A stretch of DNA of 51,240 nt, taken from NCBI RefSeq assembly GCF_900115195.1, contig NZ_FOVO01000027.1, positions 1 through 51,240 of the forward strand. The letters run 5' to 3'. Positions 3,998-45,848 of the stretch are shown here, piece by piece. The translations under genes were made by a program, and so were the position numbers. The stretch comes from Xenorhabdus japonica. Lineage in GTDB: Bacteria; Pseudomonadota; Gammaproteobacteria; Enterobacterales; Enterobacteriaceae. The notes under the pieces are model-generated. The model did no database searches, was not told the DNA's origin, and was given only the letters and a program-made list of their open reading frames with translations. Numbering within the stretch: the stretch's first letter is position 1; each line of letters starts with the position of its first letter.

Positions 3998-4037
3998 GAT
4001 CTGTTCGAAGTTCGCAGCCTGATTAGTTGAGGCTGGC

Positions 4038-4068
4038 GGCTGGCGATTTTTTAATCGCCAGCCTTTTT
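4038..4068 (+). terminator. rplL-rpoB transcription attenuator
   Basis: GGCTGGCGAT (4038-4047) pairs perfectly with ATCGCCAGCC (4054-4063), followed by TTTTT. It sits where the E. coli partial terminator lowers RNA polymerase subunit transcription relative to L7/L12. The remaining spacer up to 4381 has no open reading frame of note and probably includes an RNase III processing region, which I did not locate precisely. Confidence 0.85.
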
Positions 4069-25382: not shown

Positions 25383-25738
25383 GGTGTCGTCATCCTGTCA
25401 CTGAATGAAGAAAATTTGGGTAAGTATTTAGAGGGATATGCTGAAGGTTAGTGACGTGGGAAACATCATCCCGTAAAAATATTCGCAGGGAGGAGTGAAA
25501 GGGCGTAGCTATTTCTTTCGAGTTTTTTCGCAATTTCATGGAGAAATAGCAAAATTGCAATCAAAGAATGTGACAAGGTGCAATTTAACACAATGAAATT
25601 AATCAACTTGTTTGCAAAAAATGAGTGTTTCTCTACATTTGTTGGGCGTTAGCGAATGTTAATGGTGTAAGTGACTTAATAGTATCAGACAAAATTCAGG
25701 TATCAGTTTTATTCATTGTGTGTGAGGGGAAAAAATTA
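25383..25738. promoter_or_regulatory. Divergent malP/malT control region
   Basis: For malP (minus strand) a GGATGA MalT box is at 25466-25471, in a GGGATGATG context. A GGAGGA on the plus strand is at 25489-25494. For malT, TGTGACAAGGTGCAATTT at 25570-25587 closely resembles the CRP site of the E. coli malT promoter as I remember it (TGTGACACAGTGCAAATT). This implies cAMP-CRP activation of malT and MalT activation of malPQ. Confidence 0.72.
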
Positions 25739-28453
25739 ATGCTTATCCCATCGAAACTCAGCCGCCCCCTTCGGCTCAATAATATGGTTATGCGGGAGCG
25801 CCTGCTAGAAAAGTTCAATGAAGTTCAGGGTTATCGGCTGGTCTTGGTAACCAGTCCTGCTGGATATGGCAAAACGACATTGATGTCACAATGGGCTGCC
25901 GGGCAAGAGCGCCTTGGGTGGTATTCTCTTGATGATAGTGACAATCAGCCGGAGCGCTTTGCCAGCTATTTGATTGCAGCTATTCAGCAGGCAACGCAGG
26001 GGCACTGTGTAAAAAGTGACGTGCTGGCCCAGAAACACCAATACGCCAATTTACCTGCGTTGTTTGCGCAATTGTTTATTGAGCTTAGCGAATGGCAGCA
26101 ACCGATTTTTCTGGTGATCGACGATTATCATTTGATAATGAATGGGCTTATTCATGAAGCAATGCGTTTTTTCCTGCGCCACCAACCAGAAAACTTAACA
26201 TTGGTGCTCCTATCACGCCATTTGCCATCCTTGGGAATTGCTAACTTACGTGTCCGCGAGCAGTTATTGGAGATTGATAGCCAACAGTTGGCTTTTGATT
26301 ATCGGGAAACGCAGCAATTTTTCGCCAAGCGGTTAACCAATCCACTGGATTCTGAGCACTGTAAACAGTTATGCAATGATGTTGCTGGGTGGGCTACTGC
26401 TTTGCAGTTGATTGCCCTTTCTGCCCGTCAATCTGGTAATACGACTGAAATGTCAGCAAGGCGTCTTTCGGGAATTAATGCCAGTCACCTTGCGGATTAC
26501 CTTGTGGATGAGGTTTTAAATCGGGTGAATCAGAAGACGCGGAATTTCTTGCTGCATAGTTCTATTCTGCGTTCCATGAATGATGGCCTGATTGTTTGCC
26601 TGACGGGAGAGGACAACGGTCAACAACGTCTGGAGGATATTGAACGTCAGGGGTTGTTTATTCAACGGATGGATGATTCTGGAGAGTGGTTCTGCTTTCA
26701 TCCTTTATTTGCTTCATTCCTGCGCCAACGTTGCCAATGGGAAATGGCAGCAAAATTACCTGAATTACATAGAGCAGCCGTGAAAGGATGGTTGATGCAG
26801 GGCTATCCGGGAGAAGCTATTCATCATGCTCTGGCGGCGGGAGATACAACTTTGTTGCGGGATATTTTGTTGCAACATGCTTGGGAGTTATTTAACCACA
26901 GCAAACTATCCCTATTGGAAGAGTGCATGAATGCACTGCCATATGAACAACTATTGGAAAGTCCTCGCTTGGTTCTGTTACAAGCATGGTTGGCACAGAG
27001 TCAACATCGTTACTATGAAGTAAATGCGTTATTGAATCAGACAGAGCAATCATTGAAACAGAAGCAAATAGCTATTGAGCCGGAGTTACTGGCGGAATTT
27101 GATGTTCTGAGAGCTCAGGTAGCGATTAACGATGGTTGTCCGTCTGATGCCGATGCTTTGGCTGAAAAAGCTCTGGCGACCCTACTGCCAGACAATAAAT
27201 ATGGCCGTATTGTGGCGATGTCAGTGAAAGGAGAGGTATTGCATTGCAATGGGCAGTTGGTCAATGCATTGGCTTTGATGAAGCAAACTGAGCAACTTGC
27301 CCGCGTTTGTCATGTTTACCACTATGCTTTATGGGCGTTGTTGCAACAAAGCGAAATTTTATTGGCGCAAGGTTACTTACAGGCGGCTTATGATACTCAG
27401 ACCCATGCTTTTGACTTAATACATGAGCAGCATTTAGAACAATTGCCGATGCATGAGTTTCTGCTCAGGATCCGTTCACAACTTTTGTGGTGTTGGGCTC
27501 GTATTGATGAATCAGAAGATGCGGCTCGTCAAGGGCTGGAAGTGTTGGCCAATTACCAGCCACAGCAGCAATTACAATGTCTTACCCAGCTGGCAAAGTG
27601 TTCTTTGATTCGAGGGGATATTGATAACGCTCGTCGCTACTTGACCCGCTGCGAAAACTTACTGAGTAATGGACAGTACCATCGGGATTGGCGGACAAAT
27701 ACTGATAAATTGCGTGTCATTATTTGGCAAAGTTTGGAAGATAGCAGTTCGTTGACACAATGGTTGGCACAGGCAGAACGACCAGACAGTTTTTGTAACC
27801 ACTTCAATCAGAATCAATGGCGAAACATTGCACGAGCACAAATCTTACTTGGTCAATATGGGGACGCTGAATCTATTTTGGAGAAGCTGAATACATATGC
27901 CAGAAAATTGGCATTGGTCAGCGATTTAAATCGTAATCTCCTGCTGTGTAATTTGCTTTATTGGCAGATTGAACGTAAAGCTGAGGCTCAGGATGTTTTG
28001 ATGGAAGCCTTGAGTTTGGCCAATCGCACGGGGTTTATCAGCCATTTTGTTATTGAAGGTGAGCTGATGGCTTTACAACTGCGCCAGCTTATCCAACTTA
28101 ATATCTTGCCTGAAATGGAACAGCGTAGGGCTCAACGCATTCTTCGGGAAATCAACCGACAGCACCGACATAAATTTGCCCATTTTGACGAAACGTTTGT
28201 AGAACAGTTACTCACTCATCCTGACGTGCCTGAGCTTATTCGTAACAGTCCACTTACTCAGCGTGAATGGCAGGTATTGGGGTTGATTTATTCTGGCTAC
28301 AGCAATGATCAAATTGCCGCAGAACTGGATGTGGCTGCAACCACTATAAAAACCCATATACGTAATTTATATCAGAAAATGGGAATTACTCACCGACAGG
28401 AAGCTATTCAGCAGGCACAGAAATTGATGCGAATGATAGGGCTAGGGGTTTAG
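25739..28453 (+). CDS. malT: HTH-type transcriptional activator MalT
   Basis: MalT is the STAND-family ATPase that, bound to ATP and maltotriose, activates all mal promoters. The start at 25739 gives [15 protein letters not shown], matching the family, and 904 residues (E. coli 901). Upstream in-frame codons to 25625 are rejected, and GAGGGG lies just before the chosen ATG. Walker A is SPAGYGKTT at 39-47. A long TPR-like region fills about 440-800, and the C-terminal LuxR-type HTH shows [20 protein letters not shown] and [16 protein letters not shown]. Confidence 0.96.
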
Positions 28454-28528
28454 CGATTATTTCTAAATGTGATTTATTATGTCTTTAATATGAACAATAA
28501 ATATTAATAAATAACTATATGATTCTTC

Positions 28529-28551
28529 AAATTTAAATTTTTTTTAAATTT
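28529..28551. terminator. AT-only palindrome after malT, possible weak terminator
   Basis: AAATTTAAA and TTTAAATTT pair around a short T loop, followed by an AT-rich tract. It is 75 bases past the malT stop. The stem has no G-C pairs, so its strength is doubtful. The rest of 28454-28626 is very AT-rich and holds no gene. Confidence 0.35.
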
Positions 28552-28626
28552 ATTTAATATTTTTTATTACATTTTTATGATCTAAATGCGCTTAATCTAA
28601 TTTCATCGCAATAAGTATGTTTTTTC

Positions 28627-28778
28627 ATTGTTTAATACAACTAATTGTTTAATGAAGTAATTGTTTTGCGGTGTTAATTGTTTAGTGATGTTAGTTTTTT
28701 ATGCAAATAATTTTTCAATGCAAATAATTACTTTATGCAATGAATTGTTTAATACAACGAATTGTTTAATACAAACTA
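28627..28778 (+). repeat. Nine degenerate 17-bp direct repeats upstream of the accessory operon
   Basis: Units begin at 28627, 28644, 28660, 28677, 28694, 28711, 28728, 28744 and 28761 and are 16-18 bases long. The best copies read ATTGTTTAATACAACKA, and outer copies are more alike than the central three, which share ATGCAAATAA. Each good unit has TTGT and ACAA half-sites in dyad. The last two units also offer a promoter-like pair, TTGTTT (28745-28750) and TAATAC (28767-28772), 16 bases apart. The array ends about 14 bases before the first start codon, so a regulator-binding or promoter role is likely but unproven. Confidence 0.8.
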
Positions 28779-28792
28779 ACTAATAGTGGTGA

Positions 28793-30055
28793 ATGATTAT
28801 GGAAAATAAAGATCATCTTGAAGATATGCTTTCTCACTTTATTGGTCATGGCCCTTATTTGATTATTGATGGTGAAAAATATATTGACGCGGCATCAGGA
28901 ACTTTTAATTTGCCGCTAGGCTACACGAATGAGCGGATTGCAGACAAACTCAAACAGCAGATTGATAGATGTACACATTTGAGTTCGGCTTATACACATG
29001 AAATGTCACAATATATTTTAAGTAAATTACTTAAACATACACCTAAAGGAGTAGATCGTATTTGGCTGAGAGATGTATCTGGATCTGGTGCAGTTGAATG
29101 TGCTATCCGTATAGCGCAAAAATCAACGGGACGTTCAGGTGTTATTTCGTTCTTTCTTGCCCATCATGGACAATCTCTTGCAACAGCACAGATTTCCGGC
29201 AATGCGTTCAGAATTAAGGAATTCCATGTAAATATTGATGGTTCGATAAAAATTCCTGCGCCAGCCAGTGTTCTGTCAGAGTCACAATCACAGCCGAATG
29301 AAGGGCAATTTGTCGATTTAGAGCAGTTTATTCAGTTAGGTTCTAATGACAATATTGCATGTCTTATTATTGAACCGATTCAGGGGAATGGCGGAAATAC
29401 TGTTTTCCCTGTGTCTTTCTACCGGAAGATCAGGGAAATCTGTCATCAACATGGCATCATCATTATTGCGGATGAAGTACAGACAGGTTTTGGTCGTACA
29501 GGTACGTTTTTCGCCTCGACGGGTTATGCCAAAGAACTGGAACCGGATATCATCGTTTTCGCCAAAGGAGCTGGAGGCATCGGTATTCCAACTGGCGGCG
29601 TATTGATGCGCCATTCACTGGATATTCTGGAATCGTTCGAACATTCCAGCACTTCTGGTGCCAACCCACTCTCTTTGGTGGCTCTCAATGAAATCATCGA
29701 CATTATTGAAGATGATCACATTTTGGAAAATGTGCAACAAAATGAAGCCTACTTGCGTGATGGTTTGTTGAAATTACAGCATCAATATCCAGAGATCACG
29801 GGAGTCAGAGGTGTAGGATATATGTATGGCTTTGATACACCAAATCCAGATTTTGCAGCGCAGGCGATAGCCACTGCCAGCCGCCATAATTTGCTCTTAC
29901 GTGGTTCCCGTTATGGTAAGGGAAAAACAATCAAAGTTCGTCCACCGCTGATTTGCACGCAGGAACATCTGGCGGAAATCCTGCATAAACTGGATCTGAC
30001 TTTCTCAGAATTAACGGCTATCGCACAGGTATATAAGGAGGTTGCATCATGCTAG
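28793..30055 (+). CDS. Class III PLP-dependent aminotransferase (accessory operon gene 1)
   Basis: The product is a 420-residue fold-type I aminotransferase of the class III (GabT/ArgD/HemL-like) family. Visible marks are the cofactor-phosphate region VSGSGAVECAIRIA (95-108), IIEPIQGNGG (192-201), the pyridine-binding Asp227 in IIIIADEVQTGFGRTG, and the Schiff-base Lys258 in VFAKGAGG. Substrate-side segments diverge from GabT and ArgD, so the substrate is unknown. Class III enzymes act on terminal amines, ketones or aldehydes; GabT1 of the Bacillus azasugar pathway belongs here. A second ATG at 28799 is an alternative start, since GTGGTG lies close to the first. The stop overlaps the next gene by 7 bases. 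Confidence 0.9.
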   Translation: MIMENKDHLEDMLSHFIGHGPYLIIDGEKYIDAASGTFNLPLGYTNERIADKLKQQIDRCTHLSSAYTHEMSQYILSKLLKHTPKGVDRIWLRDVSGSGAVECAIRIAQKSTGRSGVISFFLAHHGQSLATAQISGNAFRIKEFHVNIDGSIKIPAPASVLSESQSQPNEGQFVDLEQFIQLGSNDNIACLIIEPIQGNGGNTVFPVSFYRKIREICHQHGIIIIADEVQTGFGRTGTFFASTGYAKELEPDIIVFAKGAGGIGIPTGGVLMRHSLDILESFEHSSTSGANPLSLVALNEIIDIIEDDHILENVQQNEAYLRDGLLKLQHQYPEITGVRGVGYMYGFDTPNPDFAAQAIATASRHNLLLRGSRYGKGKTIKVRPPLICTQEHLAEILHKLDLTFSELTAIAQVYKEVASC

Positions 30056-31110
30056 CGCTTAAATATCATCAAGCTTGGGATGTTGAAATTCAGCAAGTTG
30101 AATCTTTGGCTTGTATTGAACCTGATGATGTTGTTGTTGATATTGCAGTGTGTGGTATTTGTGGCACGGATGTGGGAATTATCACAGGCGCTTACCCTGT
30201 TGCAATACCGGGAACCACTTTGGGTCATGAAACCACTGGCGTGGTATCGCAAATTGGCAGCGATGTTACTCAGTTTCAGGTGGGAGATCGTGTTGTGGTC
30301 AACCCGACCTACTTTTGTGGGCATTGCCGGATGTGTCAGACGGGAAGTCCTAATCATTGTGAGAGAAAATTGGGAACAGAAGCAGGGGTTTCCTATGATG
30401 GCGCGTTCGCAGATCAATATTTGGCAAAAGAAAATTTACTTATCAAGCTGGATGATCATGTCAGCATGGAAGAAGCCTCACTGACTGAACCACTGAGCTG
30501 TACACTAACCGGAGTGGATAAACTGGGGATCACCCACACTAATATTCGTGCAGCGGTAGCAGGGGCTGGCCCTATGGGAATGTTGTACATTTGGGCGCTG
30601 CATGAGCGGGGCGTACAAGCCTTTATGGTTGAAAAGAATGAGAGTCGAATTCAGTTTGCAAGAGATAATTTGCCTCCGGGAAGCCAGTTGTATTCTGACT
30701 TTGATGAAGCACTGGTTCAGGAATATGGTGATACGTCAGCTCTGATTGACTTATGTGTGGATACGACAGGACAGTTGACCGAATACATTTTTAACCATTT
30801 GGCACCGGGTGGGAAGTTGCTGAATGTTGCCCTGAAAGACAAACATGCCAATTTGGATATTATGAAAATTGCGGATAAAAGTCTTTCAGTGATAGGTTCC
30901 ATTGATTCCCTGAATAACAGTTTTGAACGCGCCTATGCCATGATCCGTGATGGTGTAATCCCTGCGGAGCGTTTTATCAGCCAAGTTTTTGATTTCAAAG
31001 ATTATCAGCAGGCTTTTCTTACTGTTGGTTGTGATATTGCATCGAAAGCTCAAGTTCCTCTCAGTGCACCAAACTGCAAGGTGTTGATTCGTATCTCTGA
31101 CCTAAAGTAA
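30049..31110 (+). CDS. Zinc-dependent medium-chain alcohol/polyol dehydrogenase (accessory operon gene 2)
   Basis: This 353-residue MDR-family enzyme oxidises a secondary or primary alcohol with NAD(P), by family. Catalytic zinc ligands are Cys38 (GICGTD), His60-Glu61 (LGHE) and Glu147 (TEPLSC). The structural zinc site has Cys90, Cys93, Cys96 and Cys104. The Rossmann motif is AGAGPMG at 171-177. The overall pattern fits the sorbitol/threonine dehydrogenase branch, like GutB1 of azasugar clusters, rather than ethanol dehydrogenases. An excellent Shine-Dalgarno (AAGGAGGT) lies inside the upstream gene and the two frames overlap by 7 bases, so they are coupled. The exact substrate is inferred, not shown. 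Confidence 0.92.
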   Translation: MLALKYHQAWDVEIQQVESLACIEPDDVVVDIAVCGICGTDVGIITGAYPVAIPGTTLGHETTGVVSQIGSDVTQFQVGDRVVVNPTYFCGHCRMCQTGSPNHCERKLGTEAGVSYDGAFADQYLAKENLLIKLDDHVSMEEASLTEPLSCTLTGVDKLGITHTNIRAAVAGAGPMGMLYIWALHERGVQAFMVEKNESRIQFARDNLPPGSQLYSDFDEALVQEYGDTSALIDLCVDTTGQLTEYIFNHLAPGGKLLNVALKDKHANLDIMKIADKSLSVIGSIDSLNNSFERAYAMIRDGVIPAERFISQVFDFKDYQQAFLTVGCDIASKAQVPLSAPNCKVLIRISDLK

Positions 31111-31136
31111 TTGATCGTTTGAAGGACTGTTATTTG

Positions 31137-31802
31137 ATGAATAAATGCAATGTCATTTTTGATATCGACGGAGTGATTGTTGATAGTGAACAATTGCACT
31201 TTGATGTATTGCTTGATGTATTAGCTGATGTATCGGGAGAACAGGTATCTGCTCAAATACGTGATATCCAACCCCAGCAATTGATCGGGCTAAGCCTCAC
31301 GGAAACGTTGAATGAGGTTGGTCTTCCTTCATCAATGCATAAAAGCATTACTGAAAAAATTATTTCTCGTTATCAAGAAAAATTGTCCGCACATTACTTG
31401 CGACCGGGGATCACTGACTTGATTGCTGTTTTGCAACAAAATGGCACTAACTTTGGGTTTGTTTCCACCGCGCCGCGTAATGTGTGTTTAGCAAATCTTA
31501 GCTTGTTGGAGCTACATGAACAACCTGCCTTGATTTCTGGCGATGATGTGGAAAGAACTAAACCCTTTCCTGATCCTTATTTGGCTATGCTGAAATTGAA
31601 AGAGATGGATATTCGGCAAACTTTGGTGATTGAAGATACTGATTTGGGGATTGCGGCGGCAAAACAGGCGGGTATTCCGTGGATATATGCTTGGCCTCAT
31701 GCTTTGTCGGGAGCGGAACAGTATGGACAAGCTTCCAGCGTCATTAGGAAGTTAACGGATATTCCCCAGTTTTCAGAGATAAGTGCAAATATAGAGCAAT
31801 AA
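31137..31802 (+). CDS. HAD-family phosphatase, beta-phosphoglucomutase-like (accessory operon gene 3)
   Basis: The 221-residue product has all four HAD motifs: FDIDGVIVDSE with nucleophile Asp9 and Asp11, a Ser/Thr motif in FVSTAPRN, Lys in ERTKPFPDPYL, and VIEDTDLGIAAAKQAG. The helical cap inserted after motif I assigns it to subfamily IA (phosphoglucomutase or sugar-phosphate phosphatase type). The ATG at 31137 is preferred to a TTG at 31119 because the HAD fold starts directly after it and AAGGA lies upstream. It begins 26 bases after the dehydrogenase. In the proposed pathway it would remove phosphate from an amino-sugar or polyol phosphate. Confidence 0.9.
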   Translation: MNKCNVIFDIDGVIVDSEQLHFDVLLDVLADVSGEQVSAQIRDIQPQQLIGLSLTETLNEVGLPSSMHKSITEKIISRYQEKLSAHYLRPGITDLIAVLQQNGTNFGFVSTAPRNVCLANLSLLELHEQPALISGDDVERTKPFPDPYLAMLKLKEMDIRQTLVIEDTDLGIAAAKQAGIPWIYAWPHALSGAEQYGQASSVIRKLTDIPQFSEISANIEQ

Positions 31803-31854
31803 ACATAAGGCAATAAACATAAAGGTAATACCTTGTTGAAGGCCAATATTGGGA

Positions 31855-31887
31855 GCCTTCCGCCCGAACTGGCGGAAGGCTTTGTTT
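31855..31887 (+). terminator. Perfect 10-bp hairpin with T-rich tail between the phosphatase and transporter genes
   Basis: GCCTTCCGCC (31855-31864) pairs without mismatch to GGCGGAAGGC (31871-31880), and TTTGTTT follows. This looks like an internal terminator or attenuator that would set enzyme versus transporter expression. It lies within an in-frame upstream extension of the transporter gene, which is one reason to reject that extension. Confidence 0.8.
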
Positions 31888-31913
31888 GGAGGATATCGTT
31901 TGGAGGAATTAAG

Positions 31914-33071
31914 TTGTCTGAAGAATATGCAGTCTCTTCAATAAAACAGCCTATCATGGCAACGCGAATTTCGTTTTTTATTGCGGGATTCAGTATTGCA
32001 AGTTGGGCACCACTGATCCCATTGGTAAAAGAACGATTAGGGCTGAGTGACGGTTCAATGGGGATTCTGATACTGATGTTTGGTATTGGTTCTTTCATTA
32101 TGATGCCAATAGCCGGAATGTTGGCGACGCGCTTTGGCTGCCGGAAGATTTTTACCTTTTTTGCTTTGTTGGCTGTTTTAATATTGCCGAGCCTGAGTGT
32201 GTTCTCGACTCCACTGACCTTGGCTTGTGCTTTATTTGTGTTTGGTATGGGAATTGGCGCAACAGATGTGGTCATCAATATCCATGCGGTCAATGTTGAG
32301 AAACGAGTACATCAACCGATTATGTCAGGCTTCCACGCATTATTCAGCTTAGGTGGAATTGTGGGAGCCGGTACAGTCAGCCTATTGTTGTTTCTGGGAG
32401 TTCCACCATTTCAGGTCACAATTGCTGTAGCAGTATTCGTTATTCTTCTGTTGTTACCAACGTGGAGAGGAATGCTGGATAGCACTGAAACGGAAACGGA
32501 GGACACACCATTTTTTGCTTTACCTCGTGGCATTGTTATCCTGATTGGCTCTCTCTGTTTTGTCGTTTACTTGATGGAAGGTTCCATGCTGGATTGGAGC
32601 GGGATCTTGCTAAGTAGCGTACATAACATGAGTAGTCATCAGGCAGGTTTTGGCTATACGCTTTTTGCCATTACTATGACTGCGGGGCGATTTCTGGGTG
32701 ATAAAATCATTGCGGCGTGTGGATATCGGCGTGTGTTTTTAGGCAGCGCGATTTTGGCAACATCAGGTTTTGTTCTAATTTATCTGGCATCAAGCATGAC
32801 TCAGTTGGGAATTTCTTTCCTGATGATAGGGGCAGGGTTATCCAATTTGGCTCCGATGTTTTTCACCGCTTCAGGCCAGCAGAAAGTGATGCCTGATGCA
32901 TTGGCAGTTTCTGCCGTTTCGACGATGGGCTATTCCGGGATTCTGCTTGGGCCGGCAATTATTGGTGGTTTGGCGCATCAGGTAACGTTGCATGGTGCTT
33001 TTGCCTGTATTGCTGTGCTTTCCCTTTCATTGTTAGCAGGATATAGTTTGATTAATCCGACCAAAAAATAA
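31914..33071 (+). CDS. MFS transporter, YbjJ/FucP-like (accessory operon gene 4)
   Basis: The frame encodes about 385 residues with twelve hydrophobic segments, the major facilitator fold. The loop between helices 2 and 3 has GMLATRFGCRK, the MFS A-motif region. SGFHALFSLGGIVGAG in helix 5 recalls E. coli YbjJ. A TTG start at 31914 is chosen because GGAGG sits 8 bases before it; the next ATG at 31956 has no ribosome binding site and would cut into helix 1. Direction and substrate are not known. Export of the operon's product or uptake of its sugar precursor are both possible. From memory, E. coli ybjJ is adjacent to a HAD phosphatase gene, ybjI, a similar pairing. Confidence 0.88.
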   Translation: MSEEYAVSSIKQPIMATRISFFIAGFSIASWAPLIPLVKERLGLSDGSMGILILMFGIGSFIMMPIAGMLATRFGCRKIFTFFALLAVLILPSLSVFSTPLTLACALFVFGMGIGATDVVINIHAVNVEKRVHQPIMSGFHALFSLGGIVGAGTVSLLLFLGVPPFQVTIAVAVFVILLLLPTWRGMLDSTETETEDTPFFALPRGIVILIGSLCFVVYLMEGSMLDWSGILLSSVHNMSSHQAGFGYTLFAITMTAGRFLGDKIIAACGYRRVFLGSAILATSGFVLIYLASSMTQLGISFLMIGAGLSNLAPMFFTASGQQKVMPDALAVSAVSTMGYSGILLGPAIIGGLAHQVTLHGAFACIAVLSLSLLAGYSLINPTKK

Positions 33072-33085
33072 CAGGGTAAATATTG

Positions 33086-33685
33086 ATGAACTTGCAGCAA
33101 TGTCATTGGTTGAATGAACCTGCTTCATGGCAATGTCAGGATGATGAGCTTCATGTCACGACAGACAATAAAACCGATTTCTGGCGTGATACATGGTATG
33201 GTTTTCAGCGTCATAGTGGTCACGTATTTGGTGGCTATATTGATGATTTTAAATTTGAAGAAGGTTTTACTTTCCAGTTTTGTATCGAAGGCCAATTTGA
33301 ACAATTGTATGATCAGGCTGGCGTTATGTTGTTAGTGGATGAACAACATTGGCTAAAAGCTGGTATTGAACATTCTGATGGACAGGCAACCATCGGTAGT
33401 GTATTGACAAATGGGGGTTCTGACTGGGCCATGGGAATTTTCCCTGGTGATCCAGATAAGTTCTGGTTGAGGATCACGTATGGGGATGGAGCGCTCAGGT
33501 TGCAATATTCTACTGATGGCGAGACATGGCCATTACTAAGATTGTCTCCTTTTACGATTGACAATAATCAGCGTATTTTTATCGGTGCGATGTGCTGTTC
33601 GCCAGAACGTGAAGGATTACAGGTGAAGTTTTCAGATTTCAGACTGACAACATCGTTGAAAAAACACCTGCATGATTTAAGTTAG
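33086..33685 (+). CDS. DUF1349 domain protein (accessory operon gene 5)
   Basis: The 199-residue product matches the DUF1349 family (concanavalin A-like beta-sandwich). Family marks are TDFWRDTWYGFQRHSGHVF near residues 29-47, the DQAGVMLLVDEQHWLKAGIE segment near 80-99, and TNGGSDWAM. No signal peptide or membrane helix is seen, so it is probably cytoplasmic. The function of the family is unknown; the fold often binds carbohydrate. The ATG at 33086 follows AGGGTAA, and a TTG one codon before is less likely. It begins 14 bases after the transporter and ends the operon, suggesting a role with the same, possibly sugar-like, compound. Confidence 0.88.
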   Translation: MNLQQCHWLNEPASWQCQDDELHVTTDNKTDFWRDTWYGFQRHSGHVFGGYIDDFKFEEGFTFQFCIEGQFEQLYDQAGVMLLVDEQHWLKAGIEHSDGQATIGSVLTNGGSDWAMGIFPGDPDKFWLRITYGDGALRLQYSTDGETWPLLRLSPFTIDNNQRIFIGAMCCSPEREGLQVKFSDFRLTTSLKKHLHDLS

Positions 33686-33799: not shown

Positions 33800-34924
33800 T
33801 TATCGACCTAAATAATTATCCCAATCCTTCCAAACAGGTTGTAACCCTGATTTAACCAAGGCCTCCGCGACCCGCAAAACAGAACGATTGTCGTGGGGAG
33901 TGAATTGTTCTAACTCGTGATGCTCATCGGCATAGCCGCCCGGCTGGGTTTTTGAACCGGCACTGATGTTGTTGATAGCGAGAGGGACAACGTGATCACG
34001 GAAGAACGGTGATTCACGGGTGGAGAGGGAAAGCTCTACATCGGGTGCCAGCAGACGGAAAGCGCAAATCAGTTGCACCAGCTCGGCTTCATTCATTAAA
34101 GAAGCCGGCTCTATGCCGCCCGCACAGGGGCGTAGTCGCGGAAAAGAGATGGAGTAACGACTTTTCCAGAACTGTTTTTGCAGGAAAAAGAGGTGTTCAG
34201 CCACCATATAGCAGTCTGTTCGCCAATTGTGGGATAGTCCAATCAAGGCACCTAGACCAATCTTGTCTATTTCCGTTCGCCCAAGGCGTTCCGGTGTTCC
34301 CAGGCGCCAGTGAAAATCCTGCTTTTTGCCTTTCAAATGATGCAATTGATAACTGGGTTGATGGTAGGTTTCCTGATAGACCATCACGCCATCCAACCCC
34401 AGAGTTTTCAGTTCAGAGTATTCCTCTTGCGCCAATGGCTGAACTTCCATTGAGACTGAGCTGAAATGGCGGCGGATTAGGGGAAGATAGCGACGAAAAT
34501 AATCCATACCAACTTTGTTTTGGTGTTCCCCTGTCACCAGCAGGATATGCTCAAATCCTAGTTTTTTCAGTGTGAGACATTCTGCCTCAATCTCCTGTTC
34601 ATTGAGTGTCTTGCGCTTAATATGATTACTCATGGAGAAACCACAATAAGTACAGTCGTTGGCGCATAAATTGGAAAGATAGAGTGGGATAAAAAATCCC
34701 ACGGTATTTCCAAAACGCTGGCGAGTGAGTTGTTGTGCACGTTGAGCGAGCGGTTCAAGATAAGGCAATGCCGCAGGAGAGAGCAGAGCCATGAAATCAT
34801 CCAAGGTCAAACGAGCACTGGTTAGTGCATGTTCAACGTCCTGCGATGTTTTACTGTTGATGCGTAGGGTGATGTCATCCCAATCCAGTTGTTGCCAGCG
34901 CTGGCTAAATGTTCGGTCTGTCAT
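33800..34924 (-). CDS. thiH: 2-iminoacetate synthase ThiH
   Basis: ThiH is a radical-SAM enzyme that cleaves tyrosine to dehydroglycine (2-iminoacetate) and p-cresol for thiazole formation. The product has 374 residues (E. coli 377). The [4Fe-4S] motif CANDCTYC (CX3CX2C) follows FIPLYLSNL, and [14 protein letters not shown] is conserved. Its start overlaps the thiG stop by 4 bases. It is the last gene of thiCEFSGH. Confidence 0.97.
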
Positions 34925-39463: not shown

Positions 39464-39607
39464 TTATCGCCTATCTCATTGCTGAACAGGCTTAAGTTGA
39501 GAAAATTGCTTGTCTGGAGCTCGCAGGGAGTAATGGTTGGTTCTGACTAGTATTTGTACAAGGCATTGGCATAAATGTACGATAATACTGGCAGTGGGAT
39601 GATTACT

Positions 39608-39716
39608 CTTGTTCCCTTCGCGGATATTAGCCCGATCAGGTTCTGCGGATCCCGAATTAACGGTCTCAGCCTGTGTTCATCGTGTTATACGCTGAACGCT
39701 AGGCACTCCGACAAGA
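39608..39716 (-). ncRNA. TPP riboswitch (thi box) of the thiCEFSGH operon
   Basis: On the minus strand the sequence begins TTGTCGGAGTGCCT and continues with GGCTGAGACCGTTAATTCGG, GGATCCGCAGAACCTGATCG and ATATCCGCGAAGGGAACAAG. These are the conserved pyrimidine- and pyrophosphate-sensing arms of the thiamine pyrophosphate aptamer. It lies about 160 bases before thiC. Binding of TPP should reduce thiC translation or transcription, as in E. coli. Confidence 0.96.
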
Positions 39717-39730
39717 AAAAAACACCCTAA

Positions 39731-44101: not shown

Positions 44102-45166
44102 ATGAATGCGTTGAAAAACGACCGCTATCTGCGTGCCTTATTACGTCAGCCTGTCGATGTCACACCTGTATGGATGATGCGCCAAGCTGGCCGATATTTG
44201 CCTGAATATAAAGCGACACGTCAGGAAGCGGGGGATTTCATCTCGTTATGCAAAAATACCGAATTAGCCTGTGAAGTCACACTTCAACCCTTGCGCCGTT
44301 TTCCACTGGATGCGGCAATCCTGTTTTCGGATATTTTGACGATTCCCGATGCGATGGGGCTGGGGCTTTATTTTGAAACGGGTGAGGGGCCACGTTTTCA
44401 TTCTCCGATCCAAAATCATGCTGATGTAGAAAAATTGCCTGTACCTGATCCAGAACTGGAATTGAGCTATGTGATGGATGCCGTTCGTGCGATCCGCAAG
44501 GCGTTGACAGGGCAAGTTCCTCTCATCGGGTTTTCTGGCAGCCCGTGGACATTGGCAACTTATATGGTTGAAGGCGGAAGCAGTAAAGCGTTCACTAAGA
44601 TCAAGGCCATGATGTATGCTGAGTCTGCCACATTGCATCTGCTACTGGATAAATTGGCAAACAGCGTTATTCTATATTTGAATGCGCAAATAAAAGCGGG
44701 CGCTCAATCTGTCATGATTTTCGATACTTGGGGAGGCGTTTTGTCCCAGCGCGATTATCTGGAATTCTCCCTGCAATATATGCATAAAATTGTTGATGGG
44801 TTGATCCGCGAACATGAAGGGCGGCGGGTGCCTGTTACCCTGTTTACCAAAGGGGGAGGGCAATGGCTTGAAGCGATGGCAGCAACCGGTTGTGATGCTC
44901 TTGGCCTGGATTGGACGACGAATATTGCTGATGCACGTCGGCGCGTTGGCGATAAGGTCGCTTTGCAGGGCAATATGGACCCTTCCATGCTGTATGCTCA
45001 GCCAGCACGAATTGAAAAAGAAGTTTCGACAATTTTACAAGATTTTGGTGTGGGCAACGGGCATGTTTTCAACTTGGGGCATGGCATTCATCAGGATGTT
45101 CCACCAGAGCACGCAGGTGCATTTGTCGAAGCAGTACACAGACTTTCAGCAAAATACCACCAATGA
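44102..45166 (+). CDS. hemE: Uroporphyrinogen decarboxylase HemE
   Basis: HemE removes the four acetate carboxyls of uroporphyrinogen III in heme synthesis. The 354 residues equal E. coli. The N-terminal signature [16 protein letters not shown] (about 21-36) and the second signature [17 protein letters not shown] are intact. AGGGAG precedes the start. nfi begins 4 bases after the stop, as in E. coli. Confidence 0.98.
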
Positions 45167-45170
45167 TTCT

Positions 45171-45848
45171 ATGATTAAAACAAAAGCATTGTGTCAGGAA
45201 CAGATAGAAAAATCGCGGCAGGTTATCCGCCATGATGCTTTTTCTACATCTTTTACGCCAAAGTTCATTGCGGGTGCTGATGTTGGGTTTGAAGAGAGCG
45301 GTACGGTGACTCGTGCCGCAATTGTGGTGTTGCAGTATCCTTCACTAGAATTGGTCGAATATCAAATTGCCAGAATTGATATGGTTCTTCCCTATATCCC
45401 CGGTTTACTCTCATTTCGTGAATATCCTGCACTGATGGCTGCATGGCAAAAATTAAGCTTGCGGCCTGATTTGGTGATGGTGGATGGTCAGGGCATTGCC
45501 CATCCTCGGCGTTTTGGTGTTGCTAGCCATTTTGGCGTATTAGCGGATATTCCAACAATTGGAGTGGCAAAAAGCCGTTTGTGTGGCGAGCATGCACTGG
45601 TAGGAGAGATTCAGGGAAGTCGTCAGCCGTTGATGGATCATGGTGAACAGATTGGTGTCGTATTAAGAAGCAAAAAAAGATGTAAGCCACTCTATATTTC
45701 CCTCGGTCATAAGGTCAGTATTGACAGTGCGGTATTTTGGGTTGAGCAATGTATGAGGGGATATAAGCTGCCTGAACCAATCCGTTGGGCGGATGGGATT
45801 GCCTCAAATAGACCGTTTTTTAAGCAATCAATGCAGAAAAATCTATAA
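45171..45848 (+). CDS. nfi: Endonuclease V
   Basis: Endonuclease V nicks DNA near deoxyinosine. The product has 225 residues (E. coli 223). [13 protein letters not shown] and [18 protein letters not shown] carry the catalytic acidic residues, and [16 protein letters not shown] is the family block. The ATG at 45171 is used because upstream in-frame codons lie within hemE in another frame. No good Shine-Dalgarno is visible, so translation is probably coupled to hemE. Confidence 0.96.

Follow-up and report, generated by a model that had tools for sequence, protein, structure and literature searches.

The window analysed here, 51,240 nucleotides of a Xenorhabdus japonica contig (NZ_FOVO01000027.1), carries five intact genes packed on the + strand between malT and thi genes, which encode a class III aminotransferase (AT), a Zn-dependent medium-chain dehydrogenase/reductase (MDR), a HAD-type phosphatase, an MFS transporter and a DUF1349 protein, in this order. 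In our view, this operon very probably serves azasugar biosynthesis, the predicted product being a sugar mimic that would block sugar-cutting enzymes. The idea as such is already in print and not new, as Beal and Horenstein (2021; PMC8382821) defined a three-gene signature and list Xenorhabdus (31 hits) and Photorhabdus (25 hits) among the putative azasugar producers. With the prediction already published for the genus, the operon is of interest for its product and its host context. What is added here is that enterobacterial ATs lack the latter half of the motif published for these enzymes, that Erwinia plasmids carry such sets, that DUF1349 is separable, that a 17-bp repeat array is present, and that a Streptomyces plasmid combines related genes with glycosyltransferases. 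The five genes are:

28793..30055, + strand: AT, class III pyridoxal phosphate (PLP) aminotransferase of the azasugar (GabT1-like) clade by Pfam, tree and clade residues; predicted to aminate a ketose phosphate
30049..31110, + strand: MDR, Zn-dependent, GutB1-like by Pfam and tree; predicted aminopolyol dehydrogenase
31119..31802, + strand: HAD_2 phosphatase by Pfam, predicted to dephosphorylate an aminopolyol phosphate; likely start ATG 31137
31833..33071, + strand: MFS transporter by Pfam, predicted to export the product; true start probably 3' of the listed one
33083..33685, + strand: DUF1349 protein by Pfam, separable accessory by its distribution among genomes

Operon content and enzyme relationships

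The preliminary description of the window had proposed a packed five-gene operon with catalytic motifs and a 7-base overlap of the AT and MDR reading frames, all of which is confirmed by the open reading frames (ORFs), the Pfam domains and the translations. Pfam scores were 277 bits for Aminotran_3 (AT), 99.9 for ADH_N and 39.7 for Glu_dehyd_C (MDR), 93.6 for HAD_2, 78.5 for MFS_1 and 212 for DUF1349. Motifs seen in the translations are FAKGAGG and DEVQTG (AT), CGICGTD, GHE and CX2CX2CX7C (MDR), and DIDGV, KPFPDP and EDTDLG (HAD), with FAKGAGG presumably providing the PLP lysine. The operon agrees with the domain definition of an azasugar three-gene cluster (3GC), namely an adjacent PF00202 AT, PF08240/PF00107/PF16912 dehydrogenase and PF13419/PF00459 phosphatase, with PF08240, PF16912 and PF13419 scoring above their cut-offs and PF00107 below (28.4 bits vs a cut-off of 31.8).

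A maximum-likelihood tree of 33 ATs places that of the window with those of Xenorhabdus and Photorhabdus, then with other enterobacteria, then with Streptomyces and then with Paenibacillus polymyxa. This clade hangs on a single branch (support 100/100, length 1.17), and 13 other class III ATs (GabT proteins, paralogs from the same genome, archaeal and others) lie outside it; several branches of the outgroups are long, and long-branch joins were flagged by the program. In a tree of 20 MDR sequences, the window and cluster MDRs join the GutB1 of P. polymyxa with support of 96/97, the outgroups being four paralogs from the same genome (a fifth, L109, had no match and was dropped). Identities to the P. 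polymyxa plasmid cluster are 40% for the AT and 42% for the MDR. These groupings lend support to the azasugar-type operon proposed earlier, and a grouping of the AT and MDR with catabolic enzymes, named beforehand as the result that would speak against it, did not appear: the AT stands apart from GabT and from the paralogs of its own genome. The P. polymyxa plasmid cluster was used in both trees as a proxy for known producers, and from its gutB1 annotation and the motif match we infer that its proteins are the counterparts of the P. polymyxa enzymes characterised biochemically. According to PMC10904899, P. polymyxa GutB1 converts 2-amino-2-deoxymannitol to mannojirimycin in vitro, and an activity of 4.9 nmol/min/mg is cited there for GabT1 of strain SC2.

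Across 20 rows of the AT clade, 116 residues of the window AT are invariant, 28 of which occur in at most one of the 13 outgroup rows. Among the clade-specific residues are N199 (Glu in 8/13 outgroups), K381 (Arg in 8/13), H124 and Q127 within HHGQ (mostly Y/F-H-G-R in the outgroups) and an RGSRYG stretch. N199, K381, H124 and Q127 align with E211, R398, Y138 and R141 of γ-aminobutyrate (GABA) transaminase. In that enzyme, these positions handle the carboxylates of the substrate, and their replacement is thus in line with a substrate other than an ordinary amino acid.

Conservation and distribution of the gene set

The preliminary description had suggested looking for the five genes together in other genomes, and they were found in Xenorhabdus, Photorhabdus and on Erwinia plasmids. 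A scan of species genomes with the AT gave 33 loci (18 Xenorhabdus, 13 Photorhabdus and two remote class III ATs, L059 and L060). In all 31 long loci (L028-L058), the same five genes follow malT in an unchanged order; as the AT served to find these loci, independent evidence comes from the gene order and the four remaining genes only. Among the relatives fetched, X. yunnanensis and X. anantnagensis are the nearest, with ATs of 95% identity. Within a set of 30 genus genomes, which overlaps heavily with the species-scan loci and is not independent of them, 26 contain the AT at E<=1e-60. Compared with nine relatives, the ratio of nonsynonymous to synonymous substitution rates (dN/dS) of the five genes is 0.03-0.18 wherever defined (43/45 values; dS was saturated in the other two, and HAD, MFS and DUF1349 were trimmed to later starts), with HAD showing the highest dN in eight of nine comparisons. 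The order in 31/31 long loci and the low dN/dS show that the five-gene set is not due to chance.

Four of the genus genomes lack the AT. In two Xenorhabdus genomes among them (G025 and G026; loci L096 and L097), malT, DUF1349 (79% and 82%) and thiH stand in line, and the 14 kb fetched from each hold no match better than E=0.79 to AT, MDR, HAD or MFS, the latter three being sought at that site only. Because the Erwinia plasmid sets also carry DUF1349 directly after MFS, loss of the four genes is likelier than their never having been there. The other two genomes (G013, G024) gave no malT match at 1e-100 either, so that absence and assembly gap are indistinguishable.

In a family-level sample, the AT was matched in 9/149 genomes (8/148 genera), namely the X. 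japonica genome itself, a second genome of its genus, G166 and six others. AT-MDR-HAD-MFS is present in all six of these other enterobacterial regions, with DUF1349 whole in three, a remnant in one (L078) and none in two (L073, L074). One genome (G141) has two sets, a broken chromosomal copy (L076 8752-13526; stop in AT, frame break in MFS) and a plasmid copy (L072). Plasmids of Candidatus Erwinia impunctatus (source Culicoides impunctatus) and Erwinia tracheiphila carry the five genes, and a second E. tracheiphila record also matches. Among 72,556 plasmid records, the MDR was found at E<=1e-40 in six, which also head the AT list: two from E. tracheiphila, that of Ca. E. impunctatus, Streptomyces sp. 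NBC_00715 and two from P. polymyxa. By coordinates, the AT adjoins the MDR in 6/6 (four were opened), and four of seven more distant AT matches that were opened (two haloarchaea, Thermomicrobium and Leptolyngbya) show no MDR-HAD neighbours among the listed features. At class level, AT (1e-65) and MDR (1e-75) matched only the X. japonica genome among 369 genomes, with a limited number of candidates scored per genome. When 395 genomes of the phylum to which the L060 genome belongs were searched with the P. polymyxa AT, no match was obtained at 1e-80; no positive control rang, so that this null shows nothing. Beal and Horenstein (PMC8382821) also report an Arsenophonus strain as a carrier. The insect link of the hosts is suggestive, the genome sample not having been drawn to test insect association.

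The DUF1349 protein and the pathway can each occur without the other. Stand-alone copies without AT, MDR or HAD neighbours occur in four other records opened (Klebsiella, Pantoea, Agrobacterium and Sphingomonas), and in the DUF1349 tree, which has long branches, the cluster proteins are not cleanly split from those of Klebsiella and Pantoea. A role as core enzyme is unlikely, given that the protein is missing or a remnant in 3/6 regions, stands alone elsewhere and is kept where AT to MFS are missing. Two solved relatives, 3mep and 3o12, bear only uncharacterised-protein names. An anti-phage defence role of the operon was also considered and rejected, as PADLOC had no match for any of the five proteins.

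Predicted pathway and alternative explanations

We hold with high confidence that the operon makes and exports an azasugar. In the proposed pathway, the AT would aminate a ketose phosphate at its keto carbon (the substrate being fructose 6-phosphate or a ketose phosphate of shorter or longer chain), the HAD enzyme would take off the phosphate and the MDR would oxidise the freed hydroxyl to a carbonyl, on which the amine could close spontaneously to a six- or five-membered iminosugar. The MFS protein would export this product, with DUF1349 as a separable accessory. Gene content, conservation, clade membership and clade-specific residues were obtained here directly, whereas the chemistry of AT, phosphatase and dehydrogenase is in print for homologs from Bacillus, Paenibacillus and Chitinophaga (PMC8382821). 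That the Xenorhabdus enzymes perform the same chemistry, that the MFS protein exports the product and that it is used against insects or competitors is what we infer from this, the anti-insect role being suggested by ecology.

The likeness to NtdABC, pointed out in the preliminary description, lies in the roles only, NtdA and NtdC presumably belonging to other families than the enzymes of the operon. According to its published description, the gabT1-yktC1-gutB1 cluster of Bacillus for 1-deoxynojirimycin shares the AT and Zn-dehydrogenase roles, but has the order AT-phosphatase-dehydrogenase and an inositol-monophosphatase-type phosphatase. The replacement of the latter by a HAD enzyme, as proposed earlier for the window, is likewise part of the published Paenibacillus/Chitinophaga type, which PMC8382821 describes with the same enzyme families, AT-dehydrogenase-phosphatase order and a nearby MFS gene suggested to serve export. 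In contrast to the Paenibacillus type, the window operon has an AT without FPN...PYCxRC, its MFS gene downstream instead of upstream, and DUF1349 as part of the operon, not on the opposite strand. The five-gene gsn cluster of Pseudomonas syringae leads to galactosyrin, an iminosugar used against the host, and resembles the operon in its PF00107 oxidase, phosphatase, unknown-function protein and transporter; as described there, it differs in having no AT and in obtaining its nitrogen from a purine intermediate via a RibD-like reductase (PMC11844564). The same paper names Erwinia and Kosakonia among the bacteria with homologous gsn clusters. Within the window operon, where alone it was looked for, such a reductase (GsnB type) is absent, and an AT is present.

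An azasugar cluster has been described in Streptomyces in PMC8466323, where reference is also made to a cluster of P. polymyxa SC2 that includes a putative fucose permease. The plasmid of Streptomyces sp. NBC_00715 (L069 5304-13438) has AT-MDR-GT2-DUF1349-MATE, preceded by genes for a starch-synthase-type glycosyltransferase and an epimerase. Its AT, MDR and DUF1349 are 49%, 49% and 40% identical to those of the window; unlike the window operon, it has no HAD or MFS match, and instead has starch-synthase-type and GT2 glycosyltransferases, the epimerase and a MATE exporter. This combination hints at a glycosylated azasugar, a pseudo-sugar or another product.

Several observations weigh against the azasugar reading. 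The MDR tree is weakened by its very long outgroup branches (7-10 changes per column), and HAD (28%) and MFS (24% over 215 amino acids) are only remotely like their Paenibacillus counterparts. The enterobacterial ATs match the published AT consensus, SGNXFRXXXFPNXXXXXXXLXVPXPYCXRC (PMC8382821), in its first part only: they keep SGNxFR (SGNAFR in the window) and the next F, while PYCxRC and FP are absent from 15/15 readable rows, a 16th (L076) ending at a stop before the motif and standing outside this count. The full consensus is present in the P. polymyxa AT, the Streptomyces AT retains the cysteines at different spacing, and the authors of PMC8382821 state that some 3GC ATs escaped the motif search. 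Because the Streptomyces plasmid relative has glycosyltransferases in place of HAD (none within 17 kb), the AT/MDR pair can also sit in other pathways. Lastly, no title or abstract found in searches of the open-licence literature reports an azasugar or iminosugar product from Xenorhabdus or Photorhabdus.

One could imagine a catabolic or housekeeping operon instead, in which an amino acid or polyamine transaminase works with a threonine- or sorbitol-type dehydrogenase. The top NCBIfam matches are indeed acetylornithine/aspartate transaminase families for the AT and inosose/threonine dehydrogenases for the MDR, and the PDB matches are racemases, GABA transaminase and polyol dehydrogenases. However, the NCBIfam scores lie below the cut-offs in the best 25 of 71 AT rows and in all 23 MDR rows (e.g. 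245 vs 552 and 143 vs 450 bits), and the trees together with the residue changes split AT and MDR from GabT and the paralogs of the same genome, on which grounds a catabolic origin of the two enzymes was rejected; we regard such an operon as very improbable. Very improbable, too, is a validamycin-type aminocyclitol pathway, in which a ValM-like AT would yield a cyclitol amine acting as trehalase inhibitor. In its favour, PMC8382821 places ValM in the same similarity cluster of ATs, the inhibition of trehalase would be fitting for an insect pathogen, and the Streptomyces relative adjoins glycosyltransferases. However, the cyclases of validamycin-type pathways belong to the PF01761 family, and the genome (92 contigs) has one PF01761 match, as expected from AroB alone, which leaves no second cyclase of the dehydroquinate synthase family. 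The operon moreover contains a phosphatase, and ValN is only 23% similar to GutB1 (PMC8382821), whereas the window MDR groups with GutB1. In a variant of this pathway, the cyclitol may come from inositol. Finally, the same enzyme roles could give an uncyclised product, that is an open-chain amino-polyol or amino sugar (e.g. an osmolyte or signal), and the departure of the AT motif from that of known producers would agree with this; the MDR, however, is conserved and groups with an aminopolyol dehydrogenase whose product cyclises, which makes an open-chain product improbable.

Going beyond the azasugar reading, the operon could represent a distinct enterobacterial subtype that moves among insect-associated enterobacteria, also on plasmids, with an AT that, lacking the Cys motif, takes a different ketose phosphate and leads to an undescribed iminosugar against insect trehalase or glucosidases, and with DUF1349 as a protection or tailoring protein that binds the sugar mimic and can be retained without the pathway. 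This proposal is a speculative one that we consider rather unlikely as a whole. Should the product indeed hit insect trehalase or glucosidases, this would explain the conservation, and should the altered AT motif mean another substrate, a new iminosugar scaffold would be expected. Why bacteria make azasugars is called an open question in PMC8382821. A small conserved operon in insect-killing nematode symbionts, with congeners that lack it and relatives on plasmids, offers a tractable place to ask for their purpose.

Upstream region and other elements of the window

Outside the operon, three further features were assigned:

25625..28453, + strand: malT, conserved 5' neighbour outside the pathway, upstream in 31/31 long loci
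28627..28779, + strand: 17-bp direct tandem repeat array just 5' of the operon, ~9 degenerate copies of ATTGTTTAATGCAACTA, by Tandem Repeats Finder (TRF)
33800..34924, - strand: thiH, conserved 3' neighbour outside the pathway, downstream in 28/31 long loci (not found in L040, L045, L051)

The start of the AT is likelier to be the ATG at 28799, which is present in 17/17 listed relatives, whereas an ATG corresponding to 28793 is missing in 15/17. The points from which relatives align suggest ATG 31137 as the likelier start of HAD and a later ATG, around 31956, as the probable start of MFS. Because consensus scans found fewer promoter-like and terminator-like sites than in shuffles, we assign neither a promoter nor a terminator.

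TRF describes the array with period 17, 9.1 copies, 70% matches and a score of 87. A period-17 array with 1.9 to 9.1 copies was found in 6/19 Xenorhabdus upstream regions tested (window included), and the core ATTGTTTAAT is absent from 4/4 Photorhabdus upstream regions listed. The copy number varies among close Xenorhabdus, with ~9 copies here and about two by eye in X. yunnanensis (none by TRF).

Further 5', Pfam identifies maltose genes for MalM, LamB, a MalK-type ABC protein, a solute-binding protein and MalF; the next in line are, judging from size and position, malQ-, malP- and malT-type genes. MalT control of the operon was considered and rejected: the scan of 28301-28830 found no GGA(T/G)GA-type boxes, and the adjacency to malT is therefore regarded as one of position only.

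An Rfam P26 element (4002-4064, + strand, 53.1 bits) lies ahead of an ORF of 1342 amino acids, which by size and position is presumably rpoB. An ordinary thiamine pyrophosphate riboswitch (39596-39720, - strand, Rfam 64.3 bits) precedes an ORF of 679 amino acids that is, by position, presumably thiC. Within 44102-45848, two listed ORFs overlap: one (44102-45166) encodes uroporphyrinogen decarboxylase, and the other, listed from 44814, contains an endonuclease V domain (residues 134-327) and probably has its true start downstream of 44814.

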